Made by a program: the position numbers and the translations under genes | Shown: in pieces, positions 1,099 to 42,635 of the stretch | How positions within the stretch are numbered: position 1 is the first letter of the stretch | How the letters are laid out: every line of letters starts with the position of its first letter | Assembly (NCBI RefSeq): GCF_020687695.1 | Contig: NZ_JAJEWL010000003.1 | Span: 186,001 to 250,000, forward strand | Length of the DNA: 64,000 bases | Reading direction: 5' to 3' | Source of the DNA: Pusillimonas sp. MFBS29 | Lineage (GTDB): Bacteria > Pseudomonadota > Gammaproteobacteria > Burkholderiales > Burkholderiaceae_B | Notes under the pieces: generated by a model | What the model was told of the DNA's origin: nothing | Seen by the model: only the letters and a program-made list of their open reading frames with translations | The model's database searches: none

Positions 1099-1449
1099 CT
1101 ATCCCTGCCCGCTTTCAAACTGGCCGTGAGCCTCCATCGCACGCAAGGAGTACACATAGGCTGCACCCGCATTAAGCGCGATGGCGGTTCCCAGCGCATC
1201 GCTAAGCTCCGCCTCGGTTACACCCGCTTGCCGCGCAGCATTTGCATGTGCGGCAATGCAACTGTCGCAGCGCGTGGTAACCGCTACAGCCAGCGCAATC
1301 AACTCACGTGTTTTGGCATCCAATGCCCCATTAGCGCCCTGTGCTGCATTGAGTGCACGAAAGGCAGACAGCATCTTGGGGTTGTTCTCTGCAAATGGCG
1401 TAACAGCGTCACGGGTATTTTCCATTTGAGCTATCCAATTGTTCAGCAT
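1099..1449 (-). CDS. carboxymuconolactone decarboxylase / AhpD-like protein
   Basis: A 116-residue protein of the CMD/AhpD fold. The CDSCIAAH stretch (about residues 61-68) supplies the CxxC...H redox motif of alkylhydroperoxidase-like members, so it is probably a thiol-based peroxidase or disulfide reductant rather than a true decarboxylase. It is the last gene of a leftward run (IclR, PrpD, Bug, this gene), with a 92-bp gap to the Bug gene. Its partner and substrate are unknown. A redox-active protein beside a putative sulfur-compound cluster is suggestive but not proof of a link. Confidence 0.85.
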   Translation of the reverse strand: MLNNWIAQMENTRDAVTPFAENNPKMLSAFRALNAAQGANGALDAKTRELIALAVAVTTRCDSCIAAHANAARQAGVTEAELSDALGTAIALNAGAAYVYSLRAMEAHGQFESGQG

Positions 1450-1541
1450 GCTTTCTCCGATTAAATAAAGTGGTAATGAAAATTTGTCCGACCTGGGCCG
1501 TTATGAAAGGCGCCGTATGGCGGCCCTTCATGCTCTGGTGG

Positions 1542-2525
1542 TCAAGGAATGATCGCGGCTATGGCCTCAGGATCGATGTTGTTTCGATAGTCGTCGATAT
1601 CAGCCTTTACATAGGCTGTAAATTTGTCAGTGGGCAGGTCCATTTCCAATGCGCCATCCTGACGAATTATTTTCTGCACTTTCGGGTCATTGAGTGCAAG
1701 TGAAAGGTTTTTCGACAAAATATCCACCACTTCGCGAGGTGTTCCTTTGGGAGCTGCCAGGCCATACCACTGGGTCACCACAACAGGAATCCCAAGCTCT
1801 TTGAATGTTGGAACATCGGGCAGCGAGGGGTTTCGCTCTTCACCAGTGACCGCTAATAACCGAAGCCCGCCGCTGCGCACTTGCGCAACCAGGGGTGGCG
1901 CAGTAGCAAAGAAGCTTTCGATCTGGCCTCCAATCATGTCCGTGATAGCGGGTCCGGACCCACGATATGGCACATACAGAAGATCGGCTTTTGTCTTGAG
2001 CTTGATCATCTCCAGGCCCATATGTGCAGCGCCGCCCGGTGAAGTAGAGCCAACAGTGATTTCTTCCTTGCCAGCATGTTCAAAGAACTGCTGTGCCGTT
2101 TGGAAGGGCGAGTCCTTCGCTACAAAAAGACCGTGCGGAGCTTCGACTGCCGCACCTATCATCTCGAAGTCGTCCGGCGACTTATAGGGTAGCGAGTCGC
2201 CCCGCACAACTGGCGCCACCGCTATGTTTCCACTCATTGCAAGCAACAGCGTATAACCATCGGGACGACTCTTTGCTACGATGTCGGCAGCGATATTCCC
2301 GCCTGCGCCAGGCTTGTTTTCCACCACAACGGTTTTGTCCAGGCGCTTGCTCATCGCGTCTGCCAGCAGGCGGCCGTAAAGATCCCCTCCTCCACCAGGC
2401 GGGAAACCGACAGTGAGGGTGATGGCTTTATTAGGAAAGTTGGCCGCTGACACCGGGCCGGCAAGTATGCCAAGTCCCGCTATCAGCAGCGCGCAAAATG
2501 CAGACACAAGATTCCGGAATCGCAT
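1542..2525 (-). CDS. Bug-family tripartite tricarboxylate receptor
   Basis: A 327-residue periplasmic solute-binding protein of the Bug/TctC family. A Sec signal peptide ends near residue 27 (AGPVSA before ANFPNK). The typical early strand with FPPGGGGDLYGRLLAD follows, then ENKPGAGGNIAAD and DGYTLLL. Bug proteins bind carboxylates for tripartite (TctAB) uptake, but no TctA or TctB is present here, as is common in Alcaligenaceae. An SD (GGAGAA) lies upstream of the ATG. It follows the PrpD gene by 108 bp and is probably co-transcribed. Inferred role: capture of the dicarboxylate-like substrate of this cluster. Confidence 0.92.
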   Translation of the reverse strand: MRFRNLVSAFCALLIAGLGILAGPVSAANFPNKAITLTVGFPPGGGGDLYGRLLADAMSKRLDKTVVVENKPGAGGNIAADIVAKSRPDGYTLLLAMSGNIAVAPVVRGDSLPYKSPDDFEMIGAAVEAPHGLFVAKDSPFQTAQQFFEHAGKEEITVGSTSPGGAAHMGLEMIKLKTKADLLYVPYRGSGPAITDMIGGQIESFFATAPPLVAQVRSGGLRLLAVTGEERNPSLPDVPTFKELGIPVVVTQWYGLAAPKGTPREVVDILSKNLSLALNDPKVQKIIRQDGALEMDLPTDKFTAYVKADIDDYRNNIDPEAIAAIIP

Positions 2526-2633
2526 GTAAATTCTCCTTTGGGTTCATGGGTTTATGGATTTATGGGTTTTACGGTAATACCAACTTAGTCAATGCACGCC
2601 CGACGGTGTACATGATGGAGTTTCAAGCAGGTT

Positions 2634-4022
2634 TCACGCCGTGCCGAACAGGTCTTTCTCTGGGTTGGAAAAGCGCGCGTTTGCAGGAGAATGCTGCAGC
2701 GCCTCGCACCAACCAGCTATGGCGCTAGCCCGCGTTTCGGGCATACCAGGGTTGAAGTCGCGCAAACGTGCATCAAGCTGCTCCCAGTTAAAAGGAGCCT
2801 CTGGATCTCCTTGCCGCTTGTCGCGCATGGCGGACAACACTTTGCCGTTCTTTAGGGTGATGGTGACGGTAGCGGGTCGCCGATCGGGAAAGGCTGACGC
2901 ATAGCCAGGCTCCGGAGCTATCGTTATACGAGCAGCAAGCGCGAGTAAGTCCGGGTTATCCAGTTTTGGCCGCTCCATGTCATCCAGCGCCAATCTGCCA
3001 TTTGTCAGTAATACGGCCAGACAGTAACGGCCTGAGAAGCACGTTTCAGCGGGCTTAGATGGCCAGTCGACTTTGGCGATACGCAATGCTTGCGGGAATA
3101 TCGATACATTCACAGACTCGATAAACTGCGGGTCAAGGTCGTGCTCGTCAATAATTGCCTGAGCAGCACCAATCGCCGTGAAAAGCTGGCCACAGGTCGG
3201 CCATGGCTTGATCGTGGTCGAAGATATCCGGTCGGTCACGCCCAGATCTTTATCCAGACAAGAAAGATCGCCATTGCCGTGAAGCAGCGCATGCATGCCG
3301 CGGCTGCCAGACATGAAATCCCGAGCTCCCGGATACCCGAGCTTTGCGGCATAGGCGGCGGCTATCCCATTTCTTACCGCAAAAGCGGGATGCAATGCTT
3401 TAGCCTCGTGTGCGCCATCATCGACAAACTGCCACAAGCCGGTAGCTTGTGTGGCGGCGATGCCAAGTGCGTGATGGATCTGATCGGCATCCAGTCCCAG
3501 AACCGTAGCACTCGCCGCAGCGGCCCCTAGCGTTCCCGCAGTTGCCGTTGCATGAAAGCGCCCGGAGTGCTCACCGCCCAACGCTTCGCCTGCGCGTATT
3601 GCAACCTCATATCCGGCCACGATTGCGGCGGTAAAACGCTGATTGCTGAGTGGTGTAGTTGTGCTCAACGCCATGGCGGGGGAAATCGCCACAATGCCTG
3701 GATGCAACATTGCAGTGCGATGGGCGTCGTCTATTTCGCACAGATGAGCGATGCCCGCATTGCACAACGCTGTTGCTAGCGGGTGGGCGGCTCCACCGCC
3801 AAAGATCGGGGCGGCACCCTCTGCTGGAATCAGCTGCAGCGCCAGTTGCTGCAGGGTGCTTGCCGCAGCAAGCGAAGACCCCGAACAGCCGGCCGTAAAC
3901 CAGTCCAGTAACGCCTGCGAAACCCTATGCCGCGTTGCATCAACGAAATCCCGTTGGGGTAACGAGGCTATATATGCGCACAGCCGACTTTCCGCGCCAA
4001 TCATTTTGCCGTTTAGTTTCAT
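2634..4022 (-). CDS. MmgE/PrpD family protein
   Basis: A 462-residue protein of the MmgE/PrpD family (2-methylcitrate dehydratase, cis-aconitate decarboxylase, iminodisuccinate epimerase). Family features are an N-terminal all-helical domain with LDWFTAGCSGS, the GGAAHPLATALCNAGIAH segment, GRFHATATAGTLGAAAAS (about 150-167) and KPWPTCGQL near residue 270. The closest function cannot be read from sequence. Its pairing across the divergent promoter with an ASL/fumarase-type lyase recalls the iminodisuccinate epimerase plus C-N lyase pair known from aminopolycarboxylate degraders, so racemisation of a succinyl stereocentre is plausible. A palindrome overlaps its start codon. Confidence 0.88.
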   Translation of the reverse strand: MKLNGKMIGAESRLCAYIASLPQRDFVDATRHRVSQALLDWFTAGCSGSSLAAASTLQQLALQLIPAEGAAPIFGGGAAHPLATALCNAGIAHLCEIDDAHRTAMLHPGIVAISPAMALSTTTPLSNQRFTAAIVAGYEVAIRAGEALGGEHSGRFHATATAGTLGAAAASATVLGLDADQIHHALGIAATQATGLWQFVDDGAHEAKALHPAFAVRNGIAAAYAAKLGYPGARDFMSGSRGMHALLHGNGDLSCLDKDLGVTDRISSTTIKPWPTCGQLFTAIGAAQAIIDEHDLDPQFIESVNVSIFPQALRIAKVDWPSKPAETCFSGRYCLAVLLTNGRLALDDMERPKLDNPDLLALAARITIAPEPGYASAFPDRRPATVTITLKNGKVLSAMRDKRQGDPEAPFNWEQLDARLRDFNPGMPETRASAIAGWCEALQHSPANARFSNPEKDLFGTA

Positions 4023-4031
4023 TTAATGAAA
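4017..4031. promoter_or_regulatory. palindrome over the PrpD start, candidate IclR site
   Basis: TTTCAT-TTA-ATGAAA forms a 6-3-6 inverted repeat covering the minus-strand ATG of the PrpD gene. It is followed by TATATTTTATTAA, a string that also occurs at about 4904-4916 in the IclR/FAD-oxidase divergent region. Sharing of AT-rich text and GAAA/TTTC half-sites suggests one regulator acts at both places. This is inference from two sites only. Confidence 0.4.
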
Positions 4032-4111
4032 TATATTTTATTAATTGAACCGTACGGGCACTTTGGCACATATATTAAAAAAACGCAATAAGGAAATGCG
4101 CTCTTTAATAT

Positions 4112-4852
4112 CTAACTGATTTCTTTACCTGGAAAATTGGCGGGACGTGATGCGAATCCATGAGATCTCAATATCTGGACGGCAGCAGCAGCAGCCTGGA
4201 TTTGCTGCTCTTCCGTTTGCCGGCTAAGAATGCCGGTGATCTGAAGGGCACCGAGCAATGGTCCATGCAGTTCAGACACGGGTACGGATACAGACGTCAA
4301 CTCCGGTGAGCGCTCGGCACGCGTGATGGCATAGCCGCGCTCCAGCACTTCTGCGCTGCGCAGTGAGCCCCCATCGGTAAAAGCCCGCAATACGTGTGAG
4401 GCAGAACCCCCGTCCACCAACGGAACACGCGTACCGACCTCAAATACGTATCGCACATCACGCGAAACGTTCTCTCTGAACAGGCATACCCGTTGTTCAC
4501 CCTCGCGGATATAGAACGCCACGCTTTCATGTGTTTCGGCCACAATAGCGCGAAGTACCGGCTGAATACGCTGCCCCATGTCGAACGTGGCGCGATATAG
4601 CGCACCCAACCGCAAGAGACTGTGGCCAGGAGAATAGCGGCCATCTGCTCCACGCTGGACGTATCCATACTCCATGAAGGTTCCAAGTAGGCGTAGCAGC
4701 GTTGCCTTGTCAAGTCCAGTCATGTCGGCAAGCTCGCGCAATTGCAACCGCAACCGGTCTTCTGCAAAACACTCCAGAATAATTAGCCCGCGGGCCAAGA
4801 CTCCGACCGGGGGACTTGGAGTGACCCTGGGATTTTTATCTACTGCTTTCAT
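4112..4852 (-). CDS. IclR family transcriptional regulator
   Basis: A 246-residue IclR-type regulator. The N-terminal winged helix spans about residues 15-75 (VLARGLIILECFAED, LADMTGLDKATLLRLLGTF). A C-terminal ligand-binding domain follows, with SVAFYIREGEQRVCLFREN and a VSVPVSE strand. Length is typical. It lies between the leftward PrpD/Bug/AhpD genes and the rightward dehydrogenase/lyase/sulfurtransferase/dioxygenase genes, so it is the obvious local regulator of both arms. Its ligand is probably the small carboxylate substrate or an intermediate, but nothing in the sequence identifies it. Confidence 0.93.
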   Translation of the reverse strand: MKAVDKNPRVTPSPPVGVLARGLIILECFAEDRLRLQLRELADMTGLDKATLLRLLGTFMEYGYVQRGADGRYSPGHSLLRLGALYRATFDMGQRIQPVLRAIVAETHESVAFYIREGEQRVCLFRENVSRDVRYVFEVGTRVPLVDGGSASHVLRAFTDGGSLRSAEVLERGYAITRAERSPELTSVSVPVSELHGPLLGALQITGILSRQTEEQQIQAAAAAVQILRSHGFASRPANFPGKEIS

Positions 4853-4874
4853 AATGGATAGGCCTTTATGGTTC

Positions 4875-4928
4875 TTGACAGATTGACTAAGAAAAGATAT
4901 CTTATATTTTATTAAACGAAATACGTTT
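4875..4928 (+). promoter_or_regulatory. rightward promoter and palindromic operator
   Basis: A consensus -35 TTGACA (4875-4880) is followed after 17 bp by a -10-like TATCTT (4898-4903). Just downstream is the inverted repeat AAACG-AAATA-CGTTT (4914-4928), embedded in longer imperfect arms (TATTTTATT left, AATAAAATA right). A repressor bound there would cover the start region of the FAD-dehydrogenase operon. Motifs are seen; assignment to IclR is inference. Confidence 0.5.
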
Positions 4929-4948
4929 CATTCAATAAAATATACTAT

Positions 4949-6418
4949 ATGAAGAGCGCCAACCTGATGCTGCATACACAAACCTCTGTGCCCCCACAAT
5001 CATTGCTTTCCGCTCTCGCTCGTATTGTGGGCCCACATGGCGTCTTGACAAAACAAGTCGACACCGAGGCATATTCCATCGAACATCGCGGCAACTACCC
5101 TGGCCAAGCCTGGGCTGTCGTGCTGCCGCGCACAACCGACGAGGTCAGTGCAGTGGTACGGACTTGCGCAGAACATTGCGTGCGGCTGATCCCTCAGGGT
5201 GGCAATACCGGGCTCGTGGGGGGCTCCACACCTGACGACTCAGGCCATGAAATTGTTCTCAGTTTGAAACGCATGAACCGCATCAGGAACATTAGCCCCT
5301 TCGACAATGCCATGACGGTCGAAGCCGGTTGCATCCTGCAAAGTGTACAAGAGGCAGCCGCAGCGCAGAATCGAATGTTCCCGCTAACACTTGGTTCGGA
5401 AGGCAGCGCAACCATTGGCGGCAATCTTTCCACCAATGCCGGAGGCGACCAGGTTGTACGTTATGGAAACACGCGAGAACAAGTATTGGGACTGGAGGTT
5501 GTGCTCGCGGATGGCAGCGTACTGAACGGACTATCAAGCCTGCGCAAAGACAACACCGGGTATGATCTGAAGCACTTATTCATCGGCGGCGAAGGCACAT
5601 TGGGAATCATCACTGCTGCCACACTGAAACTGTACCCCGTGCCTCGTCAGCAGGCTACTGCGTGGGTTGCGTTGCAAAGTCCTGACAAGGCGGTCGCCCT
5701 GCTTGCTGCCTTGGGCGAAGAGCTGGGCGACCGCGTCACGGCTTTCGAAATAATGGCAAGAGAAACCGTGAATCTTGTCCTGACCCATTTTCCGCAAATG
5801 CGCGAACCCCTGCCCACAGCAGCACCCTGGGTAGTACTGGTGGAGGTCTCGGAAGCATCCCGGAGCGTGCCAGTACGAGAGGAATTTGAAGCCGCTCTCG
5901 TCCAGGCCATAGAGACAGACTGTATTCTGGATGTCGCCCTGGCAGCTTCGGGGCAACAGAGGCAGGCGATGTGGAACATACGCTCCCATATACCGGAAGC
6001 CCAGCGCAAGGATGGGCCTTCGCTTAAGCACGATATTTCGGTACCCATATCCCGTATTTCGGAGTTCATAGAAACAGTGGTGCCGCGCATGCAGGCCATC
6101 GTCCCCAGCATACGTTGCATCACATTCGGGCATGTTGGCGATGGCAATCTGCATTTCAACCAGAGCAAGCCCAAAGAAATGGCAAAAGAGGAGTTCCTTG
6201 CCGCAGCAACAGCAATTCATGAAGTTGTACATGAAACTGCGGCGGCGATTGGCGGATCGATATCGGCCGAGCATGGAATTGGCCGACAGAAACAAGACAT
6301 TCTGCTCCGGTACAAGGACCCAGTAGCAATACAGATGATGTATTGCATCAAAAACGCCTTGGATCCCAACAATATTTTCAACCCTGGCCGCGTACTGCCA
6401 CTAAGGCAATCGCTATAG
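4949..6418 (+). CDS. FAD-linked 2-hydroxyacid dehydrogenase (GlcD / D-LDH type)
   Basis: A 489-residue FAD-binding oxidoreductase of the VAO/PCMH fold. The FAD domain contains RLIPQGGNTGLVGGSTP (about 76-92), the LTLGSEGSATIGGNLSTNAGG loop (about 150-170) and GGEGTLGIIT. The C-terminal FAD-oxidase domain carries GHVGDGNLHFN near residue 394 and SAEHGIGRQK, typical of D-2-hydroxyglutarate and D-lactate dehydrogenases. No strong SD precedes the ATG at 4949; ATG at 4967 is an alternative. It is the first gene of a four-gene rightward operon. Given the sulfurtransferase downstream, oxidation of 3-mercaptolactate to 3-mercaptopyruvate is a possible role (inference). It may equally act on a malate-like acid. 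Confidence 0.88.
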   Translation: MKSANLMLHTQTSVPPQSLLSALARIVGPHGVLTKQVDTEAYSIEHRGNYPGQAWAVVLPRTTDEVSAVVRTCAEHCVRLIPQGGNTGLVGGSTPDDSGHEIVLSLKRMNRIRNISPFDNAMTVEAGCILQSVQEAAAAQNRMFPLTLGSEGSATIGGNLSTNAGGDQVVRYGNTREQVLGLEVVLADGSVLNGLSSLRKDNTGYDLKHLFIGGEGTLGIITAATLKLYPVPRQQATAWVALQSPDKAVALLAALGEELGDRVTAFEIMARETVNLVLTHFPQMREPLPTAAPWVVLVEVSEASRSVPVREEFEAALVQAIETDCILDVALAASGQQRQAMWNIRSHIPEAQRKDGPSLKHDISVPISRISEFIETVVPRMQAIVPSIRCITFGHVGDGNLHFNQSKPKEMAKEEFLAAATAIHEVVHETAAAIGGSISAEHGIGRQKQDILLRYKDPVAIQMMYCIKNALDPNNIFNPGRVLPLRQSL

Positions 6419-6449
6419 CTAACCCCTTTCATATCAAAAGGTATTGTTC

Positions 6450-7832
6450 ATGCCATCTTCTGTATTCGACTCCGTTAGTATGCAACATCTATGGAGCACC
6501 GATGAACTTCGAGCCATATTCTCCGAGGAAAACCGTATCCAGAAATGGCTGGATTTCGAAGCCGCTTTCTCCCAAGCCCAGGCCCGGCTTGGACTGATCC
6601 CCCAGGACGCCGCTGACTCGATATCCTCCCATGCGAATGTTGCAAACATCGATATTCCTGCAATGGCTGCGGAAATGCGCAGAATCAAGCATTCGCTCGT
6701 TCCCATGCTTAAGCAACTGATTGCACAATGTGGTGATCACGGGCAATGGGTCCACTACGGCCCTACGACCCAGGACGTACTCGACACCGGGACTGTGCTT
6801 CAGCTGAAGGAAGCACACGCGATATTCTTGCGGGATCTCAAAGCATGTGCGCGAGAGTTGGCGAGACTGGCGCAAGCCCATCGGGACACTCTGATGGCTG
6901 GCCGCACCCACGGCGTTCAGGCCCTGCCGATAACCTTTGGTCATAAATGCGCAATATGGCTGGACGAGGTATCGCGCCATCATGAACGTATGCGTCAAAT
7001 CGAGCCCCGGTTGTTTGTAGGCATGCTGATCGGCGCCGTGGGAACACAGGCCTCCCTTGGGGCCGAAGCGCGAGAGCTGGAAGAGATGACATGCGCCACG
7101 CTGGGCCTGGCAGTACCTGATATAAGCTGGGGACCGGCACGTGACCGGTTTGCCGAATATGCGAACCTGCTGGCAATGGTCGGTGCTACATTTTCCAAAA
7201 TCGGCAACGAACTCCGAAATCTGCAGCGCAACGAGTTTGCTGAAGTAGAGGAAGGTTTTACAGAAGGCAAGCTTGGGTCTTCCACCATGCCCCACAAGCG
7301 CAACCCCACTTCTGCAGAAAATGTGGCCGGACTATCGCGAACTTTGCGATACAACGCAGCCATGATGACCGAAGCCATGGTTCAAGAGCACGAGCGAGAT
7401 GGCATCGCATGGAAAACAGAATGGAAAGCACTACCGGAGTGCTGCCTGATTGCCGGCGCTATCTTGCTGCAATCACGCAATCTGCTTGCTGGCTTGCGGG
7501 TAGATCAGGATGCAATGGCTGCCAATCTAGACATGATGCGCGGTTACCTGCTATCTGAACGGGTCATGCTTGAGTTAGCGAAGAAGGTAGGCAAGGATAA
7601 TGCCCACGAGTGGGTATATGAAGCATCAATGAGAGGCATTGAGAAAAAAATCGACTTCAGTTCCGCCATGCATGATCACGGCCAGATATCCAAAGTGCTG
7701 TCAGACGAGGAAATTGCCGAGCTGACCGATCCCGCTAACTATCTGGGACAAGTCGGTACAAGTATTGACCGAACTCTGGCCAGCCAGAATGCAAGCGGCT
7801 GGATGCGCGACGATACAACACAGTCTGCCTGA
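6450..7832 (+). CDS. fumarase/argininosuccinate-lyase superfamily lyase
   Basis: A 460-residue protein of the aspartase/fumarase/PurB/ASL superfamily, nearest in look to PurB-like or 3-carboxymuconate cycloisomerase-like members. Seen are MAGRTHGVQALPITFGHK (conserved region with catalytic His), and near residues 272-290 the signature loop LGSSTMPHKRNPTSAENVAG. ATG at 6450 is preferred over the TTG at 6444 because AAAGG lies 9 bp upstream. These enzymes remove fumarate from succinyl-N or succinyl-S/O adducts by beta-elimination. It is not expected to be housekeeping PurB, given the catabolic context next to a PrpD-family protein. Inferred role: cleave a succinyl conjugate to fumarate plus a thiol or amine. 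Confidence 0.85.
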   Translation: MPSSVFDSVSMQHLWSTDELRAIFSEENRIQKWLDFEAAFSQAQARLGLIPQDAADSISSHANVANIDIPAMAAEMRRIKHSLVPMLKQLIAQCGDHGQWVHYGPTTQDVLDTGTVLQLKEAHAIFLRDLKACARELARLAQAHRDTLMAGRTHGVQALPITFGHKCAIWLDEVSRHHERMRQIEPRLFVGMLIGAVGTQASLGAEARELEEMTCATLGLAVPDISWGPARDRFAEYANLLAMVGATFSKIGNELRNLQRNEFAEVEEGFTEGKLGSSTMPHKRNPTSAENVAGLSRTLRYNAAMMTEAMVQEHERDGIAWKTEWKALPECCLIAGAILLQSRNLLAGLRVDQDAMAANLDMMRGYLLSERVMLELAKKVGKDNAHEWVYEASMRGIEKKIDFSSAMHDHGQISKVLSDEEIAELTDPANYLGQVGTSIDRTLASQNASGWMRDDTTQSA

Positions 7833-7876
7833 CCTTTTAATCTTTTACTTTTAGTAGCTGAACCAATACAACCATC

Positions 7877-8728
7877 ATGATGCCAATACCATTAATCAAC
7901 ACAACGGATCTGGCGACTCTCCTCCAGGATCAAACAAAAAGAACGGTTATCTGCGATTGCCGTTTCGATCTAGCTGACCCCGAAGCAGGACTTCGGCACT
8001 ATTCGGCGGGCCATATGCCTGGCGCAGTGCATATCGATCTTGATCGCGTACTTAGCCGCAAGGCGGGGCCCGAACAAGGCCGCCACCCACTACCTGCTCG
8101 CGAAGATTTTACGGCAGCTATGGCAGCGGCAGGTGTCAGCAGTGATACATGGGTAGTCTGCTACGACGCTTGTGATTCCATGTATGCATCAAGGCTGTGG
8201 TGGATGCTGAGATGGATTGGTCACGCGAAGGTGCTGGTACTTGACGGAGGGCTGAAGGCATGGATGAAATCAGGCGGCCCACTCAGCACAGGCGAGGCGG
8301 AAGAACATCCTGCAGGCACACTGACTGTTGGCGAGTCGCTCGTAGACACAATAGATTATGACCAGGTCGTCGAAAACCTGGACTCCAGAACAGCACAAGT
8401 TATCGACGCGCGTAGCCCCGAGCGCTTTCGGGGCGAGGGTGAAACCATAGACCCAGTCGGCGGGCATATCCCTGGCGCGGTAAACCGGTTTTTCAAAGAT
8501 AACTTGCAGCCTGATGGTTGCTTCAAAAGCGCACCAACATTGCGTCAGGAGTTCCTGGCCTACCTCGACGGCCAGGAACCCGCCAAAGTTATCAGTCAGT
8601 GTGGTTCGGGTGTCACTGCGTGCCACAATCTTCTGGCCATGGAGATCGCTGGTCTGCATGGCGCCGCGCTTTACCCTGGCTCATGGAGCCAATGGTGCAA
8701 TACCGCGGGCTCGCCCATCAGCCGCTAG
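7877..8728 (+). CDS. sseA: 3-mercaptopyruvate sulfurtransferase (SseA-like)
   Basis: A 283-residue tandem-rhodanese protein. The N-terminal non-catalytic domain includes ICDCRFDLADPEAG and YSAGHMPGAVHIDLD. The C-terminal domain has VIDARSPERFRGE and the active-site loop CGSGVTAC, with Cys near residue 242. The CG[S/T]GVT loop is the form associated with 3-mercaptopyruvate sulfurtransferase, whereas thiosulfate sulfurtransferases usually have CRKGVT. It would convert 3-mercaptopyruvate to pyruvate and an enzyme persulfide. ATG codons at 7877 and 7880 are both possible starts. It sits 15 bp before the persulfide dioxygenase gene, a coherent functional pair. Confidence 0.9.
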   Translation: MMPIPLINTTDLATLLQDQTKRTVICDCRFDLADPEAGLRHYSAGHMPGAVHIDLDRVLSRKAGPEQGRHPLPAREDFTAAMAAAGVSSDTWVVCYDACDSMYASRLWWMLRWIGHAKVLVLDGGLKAWMKSGGPLSTGEAEEHPAGTLTVGESLVDTIDYDQVVENLDSRTAQVIDARSPERFRGEGETIDPVGGHIPGAVNRFFKDNLQPDGCFKSAPTLRQEFLAYLDGQEPAKVISQCGSGVTACHNLLAMEIAGLHGAALYPGSWSQWCNTAGSPISR

Positions 8729-8743
8729 GAGCGTAGTTCTTTG

Positions 8744-9625
8744 ATGAAAACAGACCCTGACATTCTGCCGTTTTTTGACGAAACCACGAATACGGTTACC
8801 TATCTAGTCTCGGATCCTGCGACCAACCAAGCCGCCGTAGTCGACCCAGTACTTGACTACGATCATGCCAGCGGCGACACGTCAGCAAAGTCCGCCGATC
8901 GCATCCTGCAAACGGCAAGCCAGGCAGGGCTGAAAATCATTTGGGCACTCGAAACCCACGCCCATGCGGATCACCTGAGCGCAGCATCCTACATCAAGCA
9001 ACGCACGGGCGCACAAATCGCTATTGGTGCGCAAATTCGTGAAGTGCAGACCATTTTTCGGCCAATCTTCAACCTGGACGATGTATCGGAGGATGGTAGT
9101 GAGTTCGACAGGCTGTTGATTGATGGCGAAATGCTCATGATCGGTTCCATGCCCGTCGAAATATTGCACACACCCGGACACACCCCCGCATGTGTCTCAT
9201 ACCGGATCGGTAATACGGTATTTGTGGGTGACACGCTATTCATGCCCGATTACGGCACTGCGCGTGCCGATTTCCCCGGTGGCTGCGCCAAGACCTTGTT
9301 TTGCTCAATCCGACGCTTGCTAAGCTTGCCGCCAGATACGCGCTTACTTATGTGCCACGATTACAAAGCTCCGGGGCGCAGTAACTACGCTTGGGAATGC
9401 ACGGTAGAAGAAGCACGCAAGCACAACATTCATGTGCATGACCAAGTAACTGAACAGGAGTTCGTTACCATGCGACAAGAACGCGACAAGACCCTGCGCA
9501 CGCCATCCCTGCTTTTGCCATCCGTTCAAGTCAACATACGAGCCGGCCGCTTCCCCAAAGCAGAATCCAACGGCGTTGTTTACTTGAAAGTTCCGGTGCG
9601 CCTGATGCGGGAGGCCTCGATTTAA
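8744..9625 (+). CDS. persulfide dioxygenase (Blh/ETHE1-like MBL-fold)
   Basis: A 293-residue metallo-beta-lactamase-fold protein. Metal ligands are THAHADHLSA (about residues 70-79), HTPGHTP, VGDTLFMPDYGTARADFPGG (about 160-180) and MCHDY. The TARADFPGG string is characteristic of the ETHE1/Blh persulfide dioxygenase branch, a mononuclear-iron enzyme that oxidises glutathione persulfide to sulfite. ATG at 8744 is preferred to the TTG at 8741. It is the last gene of the operon and would remove the persulfide made by the preceding sulfurtransferase. No sulfite-handling gene is visible in the window. Confidence 0.92.
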   Translation: MKTDPDILPFFDETTNTVTYLVSDPATNQAAVVDPVLDYDHASGDTSAKSADRILQTASQAGLKIIWALETHAHADHLSAASYIKQRTGAQIAIGAQIREVQTIFRPIFNLDDVSEDGSEFDRLLIDGEMLMIGSMPVEILHTPGHTPACVSYRIGNTVFVGDTLFMPDYGTARADFPGGCAKTLFCSIRRLLSLPPDTRLLMCHDYKAPGRSNYAWECTVEEARKHNIHVHDQVTEQEFVTMRQERDKTLRTPSLLLPSVQVNIRAGRFPKAESNGVVYLKVPVRLMREASI

Positions 9626-9714: not shown

Positions 9715-10131
9715 CTAATCCCTGGAAAACGGCTTCCCATCGAAATCCACGGTGACCAGATTACCGTCCAGCTCGCCCATGCCGGGTGCATTCAAGGGCA
9801 TTCCTGGGGCGGACACGCCCTTCACCGAGGCGTTCGCCAGGAGCTTGTCTACTACGTTTGCCGGAACATGGCCTTCAACAAGCTGGCCTGTGCCTTCCAG
9901 CACGCCCGTATGACAGGAGGCAAGCTCCATGGGTATGCCCAATTCCTGTTTGATCGACGCCATGCGATTGGTTTTGATCGCTTTCACTTGGAACCCCGCA
10001 TCACGCATGTGATCGACCCAGCCGGAACAACAGCCGCAATTGGGATCCTGGTAAACCGTAATGGCGCGGTCGGTTGCGTGAACAGCCGATGACGCCACCG
10101 CAAGCGCAGCCATGGCAAGCCATACTTTCAT
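9715..10131 (-). CDS. DUF411 metal-binding protein (periplasmic)
   Basis: A 138-residue secreted protein with an N-terminal signal peptide (MKVWLAMAALAVASSAVHA) followed by a DUF411 domain. The domain contains VYQDPNCGCCSGWVDHM and a later CHTG, a Cys-rich set proposed to bind copper. ATG at 10131 is chosen because it gives a clean signal peptide; an upstream ATG at 10146 would add MWSFF. DUF411 proteins are often found near copper-resistance genes, but none is adjacent here. It is convergent with the persulfide dioxygenase gene and divergent from the DAO oxidase. Confidence 0.85.
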   Translation of the reverse strand: MKVWLAMAALAVASSAVHATDRAITVYQDPNCGCCSGWVDHMRDAGFQVKAIKTNRMASIKQELGIPMELASCHTGVLEGTGQLVEGHVPANVVDKLLANASVKGVSAPGMPLNAPGMGELDGNLVTVDFDGKPFSRD

Positions 10132-10323
10132 GAAAAAGCTCCACATAAATTCAATCCTGTAACTTTCAGGACCACAGCATAACTATATCGCTTTAATTCG
10201 CAGCTCTTGAGCAACTTGATCTGCTGCGTCGCAATATCAATCCCCGGTAGCCTGACGCCCGGATTGTGGGTACATTCAGCTCATATAGTCTGACCTAATA
10301 TTAGCCGCTTGCACGGGAGAGAC

Positions 10324-11505
10324 ATGGAAACCAGTGATCAGAAAAAATTCGATATCGCTGTAATAGGCGGCGGCGTGATCGGGTCCTCGGTTGCTTATTT
10401 CTTGCTCAAGCAAGATCCGCAGCTGTCTGTGTGTGTGATAGAGCCCGACTCTACTTACGAATATGCATCGGCACTGCGATCTTCCGGAGGCTGCCGTGTG
10501 CAATTCACCGGTGAAGAGAACATTGCAATGTCATTGTTCAGTATCGACTTCATCAAGCAGTTCGACGAGCACATGTCAACGGCCAGGCATTCCGCGCACG
10601 TAGACTGGGTGGAAGGCGGTTATCTGTTCATCGTTCCTCCCGAACACGCGGCACAGCTAGAGAAAAACGTGGTTCTACAACGCGCCCAGGGCGCCACGGT
10701 CGACTTGCTTTCTTCACCCGAGCTTAAGGCAAAGTTTCCCGCCATGTATGTGGACGATTTGGGCGCCGGCGCTCATACCCCACACGACGGTTGGTGTGAT
10801 CCAAATGGCCTATTGTGGGGATTTCGCCGCAAAGCGGTTGAGCTTGGCGCGACCTACATTGAAGGGAGGGTCGTCGATGCCGAAGTGACAAACTCCAGGG
10901 CGGTTTCCGTTCGGCTCGATCAAGGCGAAACCGTACATGCCGAGGCCTTCGTTAATGCAACGGGCGCGTGGTCTGGCGATGTCGCGCAACTCTTTGGCAT
11001 GACACTGCCAATTTCTCCGGTGCGCCGATTCGAACACTATTTCACCCCGGGCACTCCGGTTGGTCATTTGCCTTATGTTAAAGACCTTTCCCGACTGGCA
11101 TTTCGGTCAGAGGGGCAAGGTTATTCCGGCGGCCTGGTCGATGGCGACGTGGCACGTGGATACCGCTTCGATATAGATCACGACTACTTCGAGAACGTTG
11201 TTTGGCCTGCCGTAGCTCATCGTTTTCCCGCCTTTGAAGCGGCAAAATGTCACCGCACCTGGTCGGGTCTGTACGAAGTGAATGAGCTCGATGGAAATGC
11301 AGTCATCGGTGCCTGGAACACGAGGCTGCCCAACCTGTACACGGTGGCGGGTTTCTCCGGGCACGGCATGATGCACGCGCCGGCAGCGGGACGAGGTATC
11401 GCCGAGCTCATTATCAGGGGCCGCTACGAAACGATCGATCTGACGCGTTTGGGTTACGAGCGGGTGGAAAAGCATCAACCCTATCCCGAGCTGGGCATTC
11501 TTTAG
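10324..11505 (+). CDS. FAD-dependent DAO-family oxidoreductase
   Basis: A 393-residue protein of the DadA/sarcosine oxidase (DAO) family. The N-terminal Rossmann motif is AVIGGGVIGSSVAYFLL (about residues 11-27). SSGGCRVQFTGEENI follows, and the C-terminus has YTVAGFSGHGMMHAPAAGRGIAELI, the flavin-contacting segment. ATG at 10324 follows a GGGAGA SD; an in-frame TTG at 10309 is less likely. Substrate is probably a secondary amine or D-amino acid, not determinable here. It appears monocistronic. No covalent-FAD His motif or four-Cys Fe-S motif is seen. Confidence 0.88.
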   Translation: METSDQKKFDIAVIGGGVIGSSVAYFLLKQDPQLSVCVIEPDSTYEYASALRSSGGCRVQFTGEENIAMSLFSIDFIKQFDEHMSTARHSAHVDWVEGGYLFIVPPEHAAQLEKNVVLQRAQGATVDLLSSPELKAKFPAMYVDDLGAGAHTPHDGWCDPNGLLWGFRRKAVELGATYIEGRVVDAEVTNSRAVSVRLDQGETVHAEAFVNATGAWSGDVAQLFGMTLPISPVRRFEHYFTPGTPVGHLPYVKDLSRLAFRSEGQGYSGGLVDGDVARGYRFDIDHDYFENVVWPAVAHRFPAFEAAKCHRTWSGLYEVNELDGNAVIGAWNTRLPNLYTVAGFSGHGMMHAPAAGRGIAELIIRGRYETIDLTRLGYERVEKHQPYPELGIL

Positions 11506-13537: not shown

Positions 13538-15121
13538 TTAACCAGTGATAGCGGCATCCTTTGCAACTATCTGCAGCGGCTCAGGCAAGGTTTTGAGGCT
13601 TTCCCTGAAAAAGCGTCGTTGCCCTGAGCCCAAATCTTGCACTACGCGTGCAAGCCGCTCCACCGCAGCGAAAACCTGATGGCTCAGCCCCTCGCTGTGA
13701 GTGCGAAACCACACAAACTCCAGCAGCAGGTTGGCTACTTGATGAGCCCCGTAGAAAACCCGGCCTGCATCGTTTTCTTCAAGCGTGAAGGCAGCAACAT
13801 TCGACCAGTCGTCGTAGCCCTTGGCACGAGAAAACGCGGCTTGGAACGGCTTGACTGCCTCTAGCATTTTGCCAACAGGAAGGGGCGACTGCGCTTGAAA
13901 GCGCTTCAAGTCTCCGCTTTTGTCGTCACAGTGGCCACGAGCGATACGGAGTACAAATACTGTATTCCAGGCAGAGCTTCCGCCAACACCAAAGCGGTCA
14001 CATATCCATTCGGATAGCCCCAGCCAGCGCAGCGATAATCCTTGCACCGTCTGAACATCCTGGTCGTTGAGTACAGCAAGCAGTCGCTGCTGCCAAAATA
14101 ACCACAAAGTCCATCCAATGTTTGCCGCCACATCCTGAGCGGCCTCGACAGAGTCCGCCTCGTAGGCGGCCTGGAGTGCCTCTGACAGGGCACTAAGCGC
14201 CTTCTCGGCCTCATTCATTCTCGAGACTCGATCAGCATTTTTGTCCTCGAGAGCGCTGCCTTTGTGCAGCAAGGCGCGCAAATTCAGGTATTCGAAGCGC
14301 ACGCGAGGGTTATAGCGAATTACGGGCGCCAGAAGCGGGTCTGATGCTAACCGGTCCAATCCGGCATGAGCTTGCCTGATTTCCCCGCGCGCATAGCTAT
14401 TCCAGGCTGAAGCGACCGACGCCATGGCCGACAAAGTAGGCATGGAAGGGCCGACAAATTCGGACTGGAGAATACGCTCAAGTCTTTTCAATGCGGCCTC
14501 GCTGCGCCTTACGTTACCGTGACGTCGCCATGCGAGACTCTCTTTGAGTATGGCCAACGCGCGCTGAAAGTCGTCCAGCGCCGTTCGGTCGGCTGCCCGA
14601 TAGCTCGCAGCCCAACTCATACCAGTCGTCGTCATGCCATCCCGCGCAAGCCGCATGGCCTGGGTCAGATGATTCCAGTAGTCCCCATCCTGGGTCACAT
14701 ATTGCAGAAGATCTGCGCGCCGGGGTATATATCCCTTCAGACCCAGAAAGCTCGCCACGAGGTCCAGGCTTGCAGGCTCCTCACCGCGGCGGCAAAGCAC
14801 CATATCGGCCTGCGCTTGCGTGATCCAGAATGGTCCCTGACTGCGACATGACGAATTGAGTAGTGCAGGGGGAAGGTCAATGGAGTTTCCCCACCCCACC
14901 TCGATACCCCACGTTGCAAAATCACGAAACGCGCGGGACACAAACATGCGAAGGTTCGTGCTGCCTGGGTATCGAGCCTGCAATGACGACGCCGGCACAA
15001 ATACCTCTCCGGTTTTCTGTGCGTACCAAACTCTTAACAGCAACCAAACCGACTGATTCCGCGCAGGGATGCCGTTCACAAGAAGTGGACGACCTAGATC
15101 GATTTGGATTTTTCGTGTCAT
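13538..15121 (-). CDS. unrecognised 527-residue protein
   Basis: I do not recognise this family. The frame is long, has no signal peptide or membrane segment, and has balanced composition. Residues about 20-80 read like a winged-helix region (SVWLLLRVWYAQKTGEVF, then NLRMFVSRAFRDFATWGI). Residues about 170-420 are helical and Ala-rich and look like degenerate TPR-type repeats (for example RRSEAALKRLERIL, AEKALSALSEALQAAYEAD). A DNA-binding head on a helical-repeat body would suit a regulator, but this is a guess. The IS3 element begins 53 bp upstream of its ATG, so its native promoter and neighbours may have been lost. Confidence 0.7.
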   Translation of the reverse strand: MTRKIQIDLGRPLLVNGIPARNQSVWLLLRVWYAQKTGEVFVPASSLQARYPGSTNLRMFVSRAFRDFATWGIEVGWGNSIDLPPALLNSSCRSQGPFWITQAQADMVLCRRGEEPASLDLVASFLGLKGYIPRRADLLQYVTQDGDYWNHLTQAMRLARDGMTTTGMSWAASYRAADRTALDDFQRALAILKESLAWRRHGNVRRSEAALKRLERILQSEFVGPSMPTLSAMASVASAWNSYARGEIRQAHAGLDRLASDPLLAPVIRYNPRVRFEYLNLRALLHKGSALEDKNADRVSRMNEAEKALSALSEALQAAYEADSVEAAQDVAANIGWTLWLFWQQRLLAVLNDQDVQTVQGLSLRWLGLSEWICDRFGVGGSSAWNTVFVLRIARGHCDDKSGDLKRFQAQSPLPVGKMLEAVKPFQAAFSRAKGYDDWSNVAAFTLEENDAGRVFYGAHQVANLLLEFVWFRTHSEGLSHQVFAAVERLARVVQDLGSGQRRFFRESLKTLPEPLQIVAKDAAITG

Positions 15122-35758: not shown

Positions 35759-36935
35759 GAATCACCTCGAACAGCCCTGCAGCACCTTGCCCGCCGCTGA
35801 TGCACATCGTGGCCACGACATAGCGGGCGTTGCGACGGCGGCCTTCCAGCAAGGCGTGGCCCACGAGGCGTGATCCGGTCATGCCGTAGGGGTGGCCGAT
35901 GGCGATCGCGCCGCCGTTCACGTTCAGGCGCTCGCTGGGAATGCCCAGGAAGTCGCGGCAATAAACGGCTTGTACGGCGAAGGCTTCGTTCAGTTCCCAC
36001 AGGTCGATATCGTCGACGGTGAGACCGTGCTTCTTCAACAGGCGTGGAATGGCAAAGATGGGGCCGATGCCCATCTCATTGGGTTCGCAACCGGCCACTT
36101 CGAAACCGATGTAACGACCCAGAGGCGTGATGCCGTGCTGCTCAGCGAATCGTTCGCTGGCCACCACGCACGCCGATGCGCCATCGGAAAGCTGCGAGGC
36201 ATTTCCAGCGGTTACGGTGCCGTTGGCGCCGCCCACCGGTTTCAGGCCGGCCAATGATTCGAGAGTGGTGTTGGGGCGGGCGCCTTCATCGGCCTGCAGC
36301 GTCACTTCTTCGCGGCCCAGCTCGTTGCCCGCCTTGTCGCGCAGCACTTTCACGGTGGTGAGCGGAACGATCTCTTGATCGAGCCGCCCGGCCGCCTGAG
36401 CCGCCACCGCACGCTGCTGGCTTTCCAGTGCGAAGCGGTCTTGCTCTTCGCGCGACACACTGTACTTTTCGCCCACGTAATCGGCGGTTTGAATCATCGA
36501 CCAGTAAAGGTCGGGGCGGTTTTCCTCGATCCAGGGCTCGCGAAAGCGATGCACGTTGCGATGATCCTGCACCAGGCTCACCGACTCAACGCCGCCGGCG
36601 ACCAGCAGGTCGGCCTCACCCGAGCGTACGCGCTGCGCTGCGAAGGCGATGGCCTGAAGGCTGGAACCGCAGGCCCGGTTTACCGTAACGCCGGGCACGG
36701 AAGGGTCAAACCCCGCGCGGAGCAAAGAATGGCGTGCAATGTTGCCGCCGGTGGCGCCTTCGGGCAGCGCGCTACCCATGATGACGTCTTCGACCTGGGT
36801 GGGCTGCACCCCGGCACGTTGTACAGCATGGCTGATGACGTGGGCACCCAGCGTGGCGCCGTGCGTGTCGTTGAACGCGCCGCGATAGGCCTTGGCGATG
36901 GGGGTACGGGCCGTGGAAAGAATTACTGCGTTCAA
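35751..36935 (-). CDS. thiolase (acetyl-CoA acyltransferase)
   Basis: A 394-residue thiolase. The start is a TTG at 36935 with GGGAG 5 bp upstream, giving an N-terminus matching the family ([20 protein letters not shown]). The nucleophilic Cys is in [17 protein letters not shown] (about residue 89). [17 protein letters not shown] supplies the His, and [14 protein letters not shown] the second Cys. Longer upstream extensions of the frame lack thiolase similarity. It is the first gene of the leftward arm, preceded by the palindromic operator at 37020-37037. Role: thiolytic cleavage of a 3-oxoacyl-CoA. Confidence 0.92.
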
Positions 36936-36993
36936 GATGACTCCCGATTCAGAAGGTAAGCATGTGCAGGCGAGTCGCAAAGCGGAACCTGCA

Positions 36994-37042: not shown

Positions 37043-37086
37043 GCTCACCTCGTTTTCGGGGCGGGTCAACGAATGAAGGAAAGACA

Positions 37087-38666: not shown

Positions 38667-38690
38667 ACCCAAAAACGGAATTTCGTTAGA

Positions 38691-38716: not shown

Positions 38717-38759
38717 TCGGCGACCAACGCAGGAATGGGGCCTCGGCCCTAACGAATCT

Positions 38760-39803: not shown

Positions 39804-39813
39804 AAGAGGAATT

Positions 39814-42631: not shown

Positions 42632-42635
42632 AGAA

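Follow-up and report, generated by a model that had tools for sequence, protein, structure and literature searches.

A candidate IclR-linked regulon for breakdown of a succinyl thioether in Burkholderiales

Results

A conserved gene set around a proposed succinyl lyase

The locus analysed here carries a small, self-contained gene set that is kept together across many soil bacteria. We judge it a little likelier than an even chance that these genes form a catabolic regulon of their own that acts on a nitrogen-free S-(2-succinyl) thioether; the most plausible substrate would be S-(2-succinyl)-3-mercaptolactate, joined in relatives by its sulfoxide. The locus lies near the start of the window, the whole 64-kb stretch of Pusillimonas sp. 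MFBS29 DNA that was analysed, and comprises the following features.

1099..1449, minus strand: CMD/AhpD-like protein, 116 aa (PF02627, 75 bits), optional member
1542..2525, minus strand: Bug/TctC periplasmic carboxylate receptor for uptake (PF03401, 191 bits)
2634..4022, minus strand: two-domain MmgE/PrpD protein, PrpD (PF03972 and PF19305)
4017..4031, unstranded: candidate palindromic operator TTTCATT(A/T)AATGAAA at the PrpD-Bug-CMD promoter
4112..4852, minus strand: IclR-family regulator (PF09339 and PF01614), found in 35/36 orthologous loci
4875..4903, plus strand: predicted sigma-70-like promoter TTGACA-17-TATCTT of the FADdh-lyase-MST-PDO operon
4907..4921, unstranded: predicted operator copy 1 (palindrome pattern), directly downstream of the -10
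4926..4940, unstranded: predicted operator copy 2 (palindrome pattern)
4949..6418, plus strand: FAD-linked D-2-hydroxyacid dehydrogenase, FADdh, D2HGDH/GlcD-like (PF01565 and PF02913)
6450..7832, plus strand: ASL/fumarase-superfamily lyase, proposed S-(2-succinyl) C-S lyase (PF00206 and PF10397)
7877..8728, plus strand: two-domain sulfurtransferase of 3-mercaptopyruvate type, MST (PF00581 in two stretches, CGSGVTAC near the end)
8744..9625, plus strand: persulfide dioxygenase-type metallo-beta-lactamase-fold enzyme, PDO, optional member

Sequence comparison and domain profiles recovered every gene named by the first-pass annotation in its place and family, namely the Bug receptor, PrpD, IclR, the FAD dehydrogenase, the lyase, the CGSGVTAC sulfurtransferase and the metallo-beta-lactamase-fold protein, together with one conserved member that it had left unnamed, the CMD/AhpD-like gene whose end is position 1099. 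For the lyase, ATG 6450 is the most likely start in place of TTG 6444, because homologues open MTSSVFD, MPVSVFD and similar, and the predicted start of PDO was corrected from TTG 8741 to ATG 8744. PrpD may start at codon 7 (4004), since its orthologues in Advenella and Candidimonas have a length of 455 aa.

We compared the locus with a non-exhaustive sample of loci drawn from a scan with two peptide patterns, counting as neighbours genes within 10 kb of the lyase. The orthologous set holds 36 loci with lyase identity of at least 63%, the window being counted separately, and the sister set holds 31 loci with lyases of 55-59% identity, 20 of them flanked by 5 kb or more of sequence to either side. 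In all 36 orthologous loci the lyase is accompanied by PrpD and an MST-like sulfurtransferase, and in 34 of them by the FAD dehydrogenase; the 31 sister loci contain none of these three, and this includes the 20 with the longer flanks. As PrpD and MST occur in 36/36 orthologous and 0/31 sister loci, their linkage to the lyase exceeds chance. The weakest match among the 36 is 29% for PrpD (L064) and 36% for MST (L094; the next is 49%). Gene order varies, with Advenella-, Achromobacter- and Variovorax-type, Paraburkholderia and Mangrovicella loci all differing. The first-pass annotation had proposed to abandon its reading if the sulfur genes were not linked to PrpD and the lyase elsewhere, and had asked whether they are always included; MST is, through several gene orders, but PDO is found in the window and only 9 of the 36 loci (at least 51% identity), so persulfide oxidation does not hold as a fixed part of the set.

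The remaining members are less specific. Bug matches, down to 29%, occur in 36/36 orthologous and 27/31 sister loci, as befits a common family, and TctA genes lie elsewhere in the genome, apart from the locus. CMD matches occur in 13/36 orthologous loci, that of L064 being partial at 47%; a 69-72% copy also lies outside sulfur loci, beside a 44-45% lyase in the Pigmentiphaga-group loci L059 and L060.

The lyase groups with probable C-S lyases

The lyase scores 179 bits with PF00206 and 66 bits with PF10397, and its signature loop SSTMPHKRNP, TTQD and H156 are invariant in 17/17 aligned orthologues. In the smaller of two trees it groups (99/96) with one XcbD row and with the lyases of scm/yxe-like loci from Pantoea and Niallia, 44-45% identical to it, which were assigned as S-(2-succino) lyases (2SLs) from gene context and not from an assay; the 2SLs assayed in Dickeya and Enterococcus are not among the rows. 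The same support separates this branch from relatives encoded in a dicarboxylate or CoA context, and the focal lyase falls outside the 2SL pair itself. In the larger tree, with all three available XcbD rows, support for the C-S branch is only 96/37.

The best NCBIfam model for the lyase is XcbD (NF052536) at 521 bits, which would point to bacterial coenzyme M synthesis. We give this a negligible probability, since the score is below the cut-off of 600 and the Xanthobacter, Nocardioides and Mycolicibacterium XcbD rows form a separate branch in the larger tree. A search of the whole genome for ComA/phosphosulfolactate synthase (PF02679) gave no match.

It is also possible, if unlikely, that MST and PDO serve other sulfane sulfur and that the substrate of PrpD, lyase and dehydrogenase is a tricarboxylate or hydroxyacid conjugate free of sulfur. 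Relatives of the lyase at 40-43% identity adjoin dicarboxylate carriers, MaoC or CoA enzymes, a profile search of PDB chains placed trans-aconitate decarboxylase second to the 'fumarate lyase' 3c8t, and the sister loci are without sulfur genes. In 24/31 of these an NAD D-2-hydroxyacid dehydrogenase follows the lyase, so the hydroxyacid link alone is no proof of sulfur. Against a sulfur-free conjugate stand the presence of MST in 36/36 loci and of an S-oxide reductase in 30/36, the XcbD and 2SL-context rows in the lyase branch, and the operator of PrpD, which recurs exactly ahead of PDO in 6 of the 9 PDO-bearing loci.

PrpD as a probable epimerase

PrpD probably acts as an epimerase at the succinyl centre. 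The closest solved chains are B. subtilis 'IRG1' (7bra) and iminodisuccinate (IDS) epimerase (2hp0/2hp3). Of the two bases proposed for the epimerase, His99 is kept (His107 in the window) in all 35 group A rows that cover the position, L093 not covering it. At the position of the other, Tyr145, 34 of 35 rows have His (His152 in the window) and the 29% relative L064 has Tyr. The active-site Arg100 (bsIRG1 numbering) is Met in the window protein.

A pairing of epimerase and stereoselective C-N lyase has been published for iminodisuccinate, and its sulfur analogue thiodisuccinate, or another mercaptosuccinate adduct, would yield fumarate and mercaptosuccinate. Mercaptosuccinate is utilised by strains of Advenella incenata, Achromobacter xylosoxidans and Variovorax paradoxus, and its published route depends on the cupin Msdo in a different gene neighbourhood (PMC5373536). 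We consider such a substrate very unlikely, as the nine widespread gene families of our loci include no cupin and mercaptosuccinate lacks a hydroxyl on which the dehydrogenase could act. To our knowledge it is no MST substrate either.

Hydroxyacid dehydrogenases and an S-oxide reductase

The FAD dehydrogenase matches 3pm9 at 464 bits and is nearer D2HGDH 6lpn (306 bits) than glycolate oxidase 9qgz (189 bits). Assignment as the glycolate oxidase GlcD was rejected at 291.8 bits with TIGR00387 (cut-off 567.9). Further 2-hydroxyacid dehydrogenases were found in three of eight loci whose gaps were inspected, an FMN L-lactate-type enzyme in L094, an LhgO-like protein in L085 and an NAD D-2-hydroxyacid type in L064, and these would fit mercaptolactate. 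The two loci without the FAD dehydrogenase, L072 and L073, showed no recognisable hydroxyacid dehydrogenase in their scanned parts; both encode a DUF2520/Rossmann protein and L072 also a ketopantoate-reductase-like protein.

A BisC-type S-oxide reductase is present in 30/36 orthologous loci and absent from the window. The one representative tested, from L047, scores 901 bits with TIGR00509 in a nearly full-length match, below the cut-off of 1017.55, and has DMSO reductases as its closest solved chains. Such an S/N-oxide reductase would fit a thioether substrate.

The succinyl-thioether route of the first-pass annotation gains from the lyase tree, the BisC-type reductase and the additional dehydrogenases. 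L072 and L073 weaken it, as do the sister loci that pair lyase and NAD hydroxyacid dehydrogenase with no sulfur genes. The substrate that we favour, tentatively, is S-(2-succinyl)-3-mercaptolactate or the sulfoxide of this compound.

Sulfurtransferase and putative persulfide dioxygenase

The CGSGVTAC loop is the MST form, that of rhodanese being CRKGVT. The best PDB match is the 3-mercaptopyruvate sulfurtransferase 4jgt (153 bits), with rhodanese almost level at 149 bits, and the SseA equivalog NF008557 gives 146.7 bits against a cut-off of 250. These scores leave some room for a general thiosulfate, persulfide or cyanide sulfurtransferase, the released thiol then being another hydroxythiol, for example, and not mercaptolactate. 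We regard this as rather improbable given the loop and the hydroxyacid dehydrogenase, which would supply the 2-oxoacid directly.

The genome carries separate second copies of MST and of PDO. In the Advenella genomes G046 and G048 the cluster MST is the sole one and may double as a housekeeping enzyme. Large parts of the MST tree lack resolution; the L064 cluster copy joins a non-cluster Pigmentiphaga copy (88/90), and the Mangrovicella cluster MST was apparently recruited separately.

PDO is a stand-alone protein of about 293 aa in which HAHADH, HTPGH and GD motifs, candidate sites of the Fe ligands, can be seen by eye. Its closest solved chains are 9g8t, 4ysk and 4efz, ETHE1 (4chl) scores 83 bits, and the Blh model gives 376 bits, below its cut-off of 625. 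PDO genes lie outside the cluster in 12 of 14 genomes examined.

A candidate operator confined to the locus

With one mismatch allowed, the operator pattern occurs at three places in the 64 kb, against 0.08 matches expected by chance. In the 3.42-Mb genome the pattern is found at these three places only. It is found at PrpD in 27/36, at FADdh in 18/36 and at PDO in 6/36 orthologous loci, with one stray site in their 736 kb, and the sister loci contain no site in their 504 kb. Sigma-70-like sites over the region show no excess (4, shuffle mean 6.5); in Advenella and Candidimonas a TTGACA-type box occupies the corresponding position. The three-copy, locus-only palindromic operator, the BisC-type reductase (30/36) and the extra dehydrogenases (3/8) are new here.

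Discussion

In the pathway that we propose, a tricarboxylate would be taken up by the Bug receptor and a TctAB permease encoded elsewhere. Where present, the BisC-type reductase, which we read as cytoplasmic, would convert sulfoxide to thioether. PrpD would interconvert the epimers at the succinyl carbon and the lyase eliminate fumarate, freeing the thiol. The FAD dehydrogenase, acting after or equally well before the lyase, would oxidise the 2-hydroxyacid to 3-mercaptopyruvate, from which MST would transfer sulfur onto an acceptor thiol and so release pyruvate. Where PDO is present, it could then oxidise the persulfide to sulfite, and IclR may repress both operons through the palindromic operators until substrate arrives. 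We think it possible, though at somewhat less than even odds, that this represents an undescribed operator-defined regulon, in Burkholderiales and one alphaproteobacterium, which mineralises succinated mercaptolactate and its sulfoxide, the sulfite step being optional.

Among the recognised kinds of metabolite damage is the succination of thiols by fumarate. One pathway for its breakdown was known before a second was added (PMC9706529). If our reading is correct, the regulon would add to these a third route, one that is widespread and regulated and ends in a different thiol, and it would be an environmental sink for succinated thiols that shows recycling of these and their sulfoxides in soil. 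It would suggest a likely role for an MmgE/PrpD protein beside a succinyl lyase, and the hydroxyacid form would replace N-acetylation in keeping a reversible lyase off cysteine. With one regulon, one operator and every step assayable in vitro, it offers a ready test case.

Comparison with known systems

The MmgE/PrpD proteins include YxeQ. A closely parallel pathway, unmentioned by the first-pass annotation, is the breakdown of S-(2-succino)cysteine (2SC) by scm/yxe loci, whose S-(2-succino) lyases were published in 2022 and which also contain YxeQ, of function there called unknown (PMC9706529). Both systems have a related lyase (44-45% for the Pantoea and Niallia enzymes, assigned by context), release of fumarate from a succinyl thioether, which here is proposed, and a YxeQ-type companion. 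Unlike the 2SL system, ours has Bug, a hydroxyacid dehydrogenase, MST, an optional PDO and IclR, with the S-oxide reductase in relatives, whereas relatives of the comparison loci's GNAT acetyltransferase, M20 deacetylase or PLP enzyme occur in none of the 36 loci (tblastn, 1e-5); the Pantoea and Niallia GNAT and M20 queries do recover each other's loci. The nine gene families present in more than four loci, the rarer ones being partly identified, include none of these kinds. A 2SL pathway without acetylation, in which cysteine is freed and deaminated elsewhere before MST acts, therefore has a small probability in our view: 2SLs have minor activity on 2SC itself but strongly prefer N-acetyl-2SC (PMC9706529), and although Proteus combines lyase, PrpD and MST with a PLP cystathionine lyase, a hydroxyacid dehydrogenase would have no role on cysteine.

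The iminodisuccinate system, reportedly an epimerase and a C-N lyase in Agrobacterium tumefaciens BY6, likewise pairs an MmgE/PrpD protein with a succinyl lyase, and its epimerase is among the closest solved chains to PrpD. The bond here would be C-S instead of C-N, Tyr145 and Arg100 are replaced by His and Met, and we know of no sulfur genes in that system. XcbD, a 3-sulfopropionylcysteine synthase, is the top curated model and shares superfamily and C-S bond chemistry, but differs in its sub-cut-off score, 38% identity to the Xanthobacter comparator (Xaut_4874, identified by gene context) and the lack of ComA in our genome. The Msdo system of Variovorax and Advenella resembles ours in bacterial groups, a small sulfur carboxylate and a nearby rhodanese, but its enzyme is a cupin dioxygenase encoded near a LysR regulator, a cystathionine beta-lyase and an ABC transporter, and the portion of the report used here describes no PrpD-lyase pair (PMC5373536). 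The regulon is probably a close but distinct cousin of the 2SL route for succinate-damaged cysteine.

Composition and conservation of the locus

The genes that the first-pass annotation had named in this divergent locus were all borne out, the amendments being to start codons and the addition of a CMD/AhpD-like gene absent from its list. Judged from the sequence, the folds of the cluster proteins are clear.

Genes of the divergent locus (position in the window, strand, product)
1099-1449, minus, CMD/AhpD-like protein (CMD)
1542-2525, minus, Bug/TctC-type carboxylate receptor (Bug)
2634-4022, minus, MmgE/PrpD protein (PrpD)
4112-4852, minus, IclR regulator
4949-6418, plus, FAD-linked 2-hydroxyacid dehydrogenase (FADdh), divergent from CMD-Bug-PrpD-IclR
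6450-7832, plus, ASL/fumarase-superfamily lyase
7877-8728, plus, two-domain, 3-mercaptopyruvate-type sulfurtransferase (MST)
8744-9625, plus, persulfide-dioxygenase-type protein (PDO)

The genome (3.42 Mb, 29 contigs) contains four MmgE/PrpD matches. A second MST-like gene (49%) and a second PDO-like gene (54%) lie elsewhere in it, so the copies in the cluster are extra ones. Two genes flanking the operon at 9715-11505, for a DUF411 protein (minus) and a DAO-type FAD oxidoreductase (plus), were dropped as candidate parts of the cluster, as relatives of neither were among the matches listed for 36 loci with an orthologous lyase (group A) at the thresholds applied. Further along the window are a 527-amino-acid reading frame with no Pfam match at 0.001 (13538-15121, minus), a nearby IS110-type transposase (16273-17559) and an acyl-CoA catabolic block (34214-48710) of carboxyltransferase, thiolase, biotin carboxylase, 3-hydroxyacyl-CoA dehydrogenase/enoyl-CoA hydratase fusion and family III CoA-transferase genes.

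Within the family, the lyase occurs at 69% or more in 24 of 268 genomes, our own included; the next match is a 62% paralogue, followed by a gap down to 45%. The three other genomes of the genus among those listed have either no lyase match or one at 39% only, and the locus therefore looks accessory. Scanning species genomes with two peptide patterns gave 67 loci, a non-exhaustive sample, made up of group A (36 loci, lyase 63-84%) and a sister group B (31 loci, 55-59%). Group A loci overlap heavily with the 24 family genomes, and the two counts are not additive. They come from Advenella, Candidimonas, Paraburkholderia, Variovorax, Bordetella, Achromobacter, Ottowia, Paracidovorax, Pigmentiphaga, Cupriavidus, Rhodoferax, Hydrogenophaga and Xylophilus, from bins and from one alphaproteobacterium, Mangrovicella. 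Candidimonas also has a second copy (L058, 6794-10631), in which a 62% lyase paralogue is accompanied by Bug, PrpD and a LysR regulator; in the 20 kb taken, Bug and PrpD were the only members of the set, with neither MST nor FADdh.

Gene content was assessed from conservation-ranked reading frames and from tblastn counts (1e-8, 30% of the query, over the whole locus with flanks of up to 10 kb). The proposal of a linked sulfur pathway held for the sulfurtransferase, which accompanies the lyase and PrpD in all 36 group A loci; the persulfide step proved optional, PDO being present in nine (10 raw matches, less a partial 25% match in L064). PrpD and Bug were likewise found in 36/36, IclR in 35, FADdh in 34, a BisC-type reductase in 30 and CMD in 13. 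Weak matches include a 29% PrpD (L064) and a 36% MST (L094), and the six loci without BisC include L066, whose sequence stops within MST. Distances from the lyase are short, with a median of 41 bp to FADdh (maximum 2.4 kb), 1.2 kb to MST (3.2 kb) and 2.4 kb to PrpD (5.3 kb). In group B the same search found Bug in 27/31 loci and no PrpD, MST, IclR, FADdh, BisC-type, CMD or PDO gene; 20 of the 31 extend 5 kb or more to either side, and the remainder are shorter. Gene order varies across group A, with Advenella/window, Achromobacter, Variovorax, Paraburkholderia and Mangrovicella types. CMD-Bug-PrpD-IclR opposes FADdh-lyase-MST in the first; Achromobacter has PrpD, IclR and FADdh-lyase-Bug-CMD-MST-BisC, Variovorax has PDO back-to-back with PrpD, and Mangrovicella has TctA-TctB-TctC and lyase-MST-PrpD-FADdh-FMN dehydrogenase-PDO. 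That linkage persists despite this rearrangement points to a joint function. CMD is not diagnostic, since L059 and L060 carry a 69-72% CMD and a Bug beside 44-45% lyases from the opposite side of the lyase tree.

A shared operator pattern

Between IclR and FADdh the sequence TTGACA-17-TATCTT precedes two copies of a palindrome of 15 bp, which recurs a third time at the start of PrpD. With up to one mismatch, TTTYATTMAAYRAAA occurs at only three places in the 64 kb (5 strand-matches; 0.08 by chance), and the looser TTTYRTTNAAYRAAA has just three occurrences genome-wide, each of them at the cluster. Across eight genomes the operator pattern was found at 21 places, which by our reading against the locus maps are 17 cluster promoters, one site behind BisC and three elsewhere; a reversed control pattern occurred once in one of these genomes and in none of the remaining seven. 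Counting exact sites up to 400 bp upstream of a gene, 27 of the 36 group A loci have one at PrpD, 19 at IclR, 18 at FADdh and six at PDO; a single site lies elsewhere in 736 kb. Five group A loci (L064, L074, L084, L089 and L094) have no exact site, and none was found in 504 kb of group B. Because the pattern was drawn up by visual comparison of the gaps between IclR and FADdh in the window and in eleven group A loci, its presence in that gap is partly built in. This does not apply to its absence elsewhere, nor to the sites at PrpD and between PDO and PrpD, which played no part in the derivation. In six PDO loci the site occupies the interval from which PrpD and PDO diverge, a link of PDO to the regulon that does not depend on the window. 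From the co-location of gene and sites we infer that IclR is the operator-binding protein. In one Achromobacter genome an operator-like site (L042, 15137-15151) lies behind BisC and before a penicillin acylase gene; this acylase gene, present behind BisC in some Achromobacter loci, was considered as a member and taken as a flanking gene.

Sulfur genes

The gene behind MST in 30/36 group A loci matches the bisC-family S/N-oxide reductases over nearly its full length. The bisC model, run on one representative (L047), gave 901 bits against a cut-off of 1017.55, and the nearest PDB chains of this protein are DMSO reductases. No twin-arginine signal was seen by eye at the N-terminus, MNDPVLNPVRPDTDPKPHSAHWGVF, and for this reason we read the protein as a probable cytoplasmic sulfoxide reductase, as BisC is. 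A sulfoxide substrate would imply that the imported compound is a thioether and not a thiol. At 1e-30 there was no BisC-type match in the window genome or in the two Advenella genomes bearing the locus; a Candidimonas genome (G110) has two outside its locus, at 69% and 48%.

In a tree of 26 MST sequences (14 cluster, 12 other) we counted three changes between cluster and other labels, compared to 8.8 in shuffles (0/500 as low). The deep forks are open; in L064 the cluster copy is placed with a Pigmentiphaga MST from outside the cluster (88/90). The cluster MST of Mangrovicella sits on a long branch apart from the other cluster copies, a position that suggests separate recruitment for the same function. 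In the PDO tree (5 cluster, 13 other) the window, Comamonadaceae and Mangrovicella cluster copies are scattered with weak support, with three label changes against 4.6 in shuffles (23/500 as low), which would be compatible with repeated recruitment. Two observations count against the proposed pathway: of 14 genomes examined, 12 also have a PDO outside the cluster, and no MST other than the cluster copy was found in Advenella.

The proposed hydroxyacid and epimerisation steps

Besides FADdh, another hydroxyacid dehydrogenase was found in three of the eight group A loci in which the gaps were searched. The one in Mangrovicella is of the FMN L-lactate type, that in Cupriavidus is an FAD enzyme resembling L-2-hydroxyglutarate oxidase, and Paraburkholderia has an NAD D-2-hydroxyacid dehydrogenase; each scores below its NCBIfam equivalog cut-off. 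The presence of D- and L-hydroxyacid enzymes in one cluster would fit a mixture of mercaptolactate enantiomers. As counter-evidence, FADdh is absent from L072 and L073. These two loci, and no others, have a gene for a DUF2520/Rossmann NADP-type protein immediately upstream of PrpD (L072, 6638-7513; L073, 2787-3668), which may possibly replace FADdh there. Also counting against a mercaptolactate intermediate, the lyase of group B is followed by an NAD D-2-hydroxyacid dehydrogenase in 24/31 loci that have no sulfur genes.

Group B (L096-L125 and L127) amounts to another cluster that recurs among betaproteobacterial bins, with the lyase mostly near 10001-11365. TctC is a neighbour, as are genes that on visual inspection resemble TctA/B and CoA-transferases, and there are no sulfur genes of the window type; an LVIVD-repeat protein family occurs in 18/31 loci, the Pfam run covering L112 only. 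The titles of L099, L106 and L114 (Chitinophaga pinensis and Bordetella parapertussis bins) clash with this betaproteobacterial content, and these are probably mislabelled bins.

Spontaneous addition of a thiol to fumarate gives both epimers and lyases of this kind are stereoselective, so an epimerase would be a sensible partner; iminodisuccinate is reportedly a published parallel for the pairing of an epimerase with a stereoselective lyase. The solved chains nearest to PrpD are the Bacillus subtilis 'IRG1' (7bra) and iminodisuccinate epimerase (2hp0, 2hp3), for which His99 and Tyr145 are described as the proposed bases (PMC7347537). All 35 group A rows that span the His99 position, which is every row but L093, have His there. 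At the Tyr145 position 34 of the 35 have His and the 29% L064 protein has Tyr; at the Arg100 position (bsIRG1 numbering) 33 have Met, L064 has Arg and L094 has Thr. The retained His makes proton abstraction plausible, and the changes at the other two positions suggest a pocket unlike that of iminodisuccinate epimerase.

Relationship to known C-S lyases

The best curated model for the lyase is XcbD, the 3-sulfopropionylcysteine synthase of bacterial coenzyme M synthesis, at 521 bits (cut-off 600). Coenzyme M synthesis itself was considered on this basis and rejected, since the cut-off was missed and ComA was not found. Lyases of Nocardioides (44%), Mycolicibacterium (43%, two frames) and Xanthobacter (38%) adjoin phosphosulfolactate synthase, which identifies them as XcbD. 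On plasmids of Pantoea piersonii and Niallia taxi, 44-45% lyases have as neighbours a GNAT acetyltransferase, an amidohydrolase and an ABC transporter of the amino-acid type, a layout described for the scm/yxe loci of S-(2-succino) lyase, 2SL (PMC9706529); on gene context we assign these two as 2SL. The lyase trees place group A, group B, Proteus, the 2SL-context rows and XcbD on one side, and L059 and relatives with dicarboxylate or CoA neighbours on the other. Support for this split was 99/96 with 32 rows, one of them XcbD, and just 96/37 with 35 rows, three XcbD rows and a very distant PurB outgroup. The only described C-S activities on the side of our lyase are XcbD (by model name) and 2SL (by publication).

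The S-(2-succino)cysteine (2SC) loci in print contain an acetyltransferase and a deacetylase (PMC9706529). A Proteus mirabilis record (L134, 3691-10824) has a PLP-dependent cystathionine beta-lyase, a DcuC carrier and an MST beside a 50% lyase and MmgE/PrpD, and resembles a 2SC-type locus that includes a PLP enzyme. An unnamed plasmid of E. coli FDAARGOS_1260 (L133, 6560-10809) carries a fragmented lyase, a fragmented MmgE/PrpD and a PLP transferase fragment, apparently a Proteus-type set that has either decayed or been poorly sequenced. The acetyltransferases, deacetylases, PLP enzyme and DcuC of these comparison loci had no relative in the 36 group A loci (1e-5), where the partner-gene search returned distant ABC ATPases only, in two loci; as a control, the same queries recover each other's loci. 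Mercaptosuccinate degradation, suggested by the abilities of Advenella and Variovorax, was rejected, as the genes given in the cited part of the published work differ (PMC5373536).

The first-pass annotation had proposed a succinyl-thioether catabolic cluster feeding 3-mercaptopyruvate and persulfide oxidation, and this idea came through the linkage comparison and is further supported by the operator, by the S-oxide reductase and by the second hydroxyacid dehydrogenases. We consider a succinyl-thioether pathway of some kind to be likely, while the version proceeding through mercaptolactate by the steps described is evenly balanced. No description of this gene set was found in the open-licence literature, among the matches listed. 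The claim to novelty is to be trimmed, as S-(2-succino) lyases were already known (PMC9706529).
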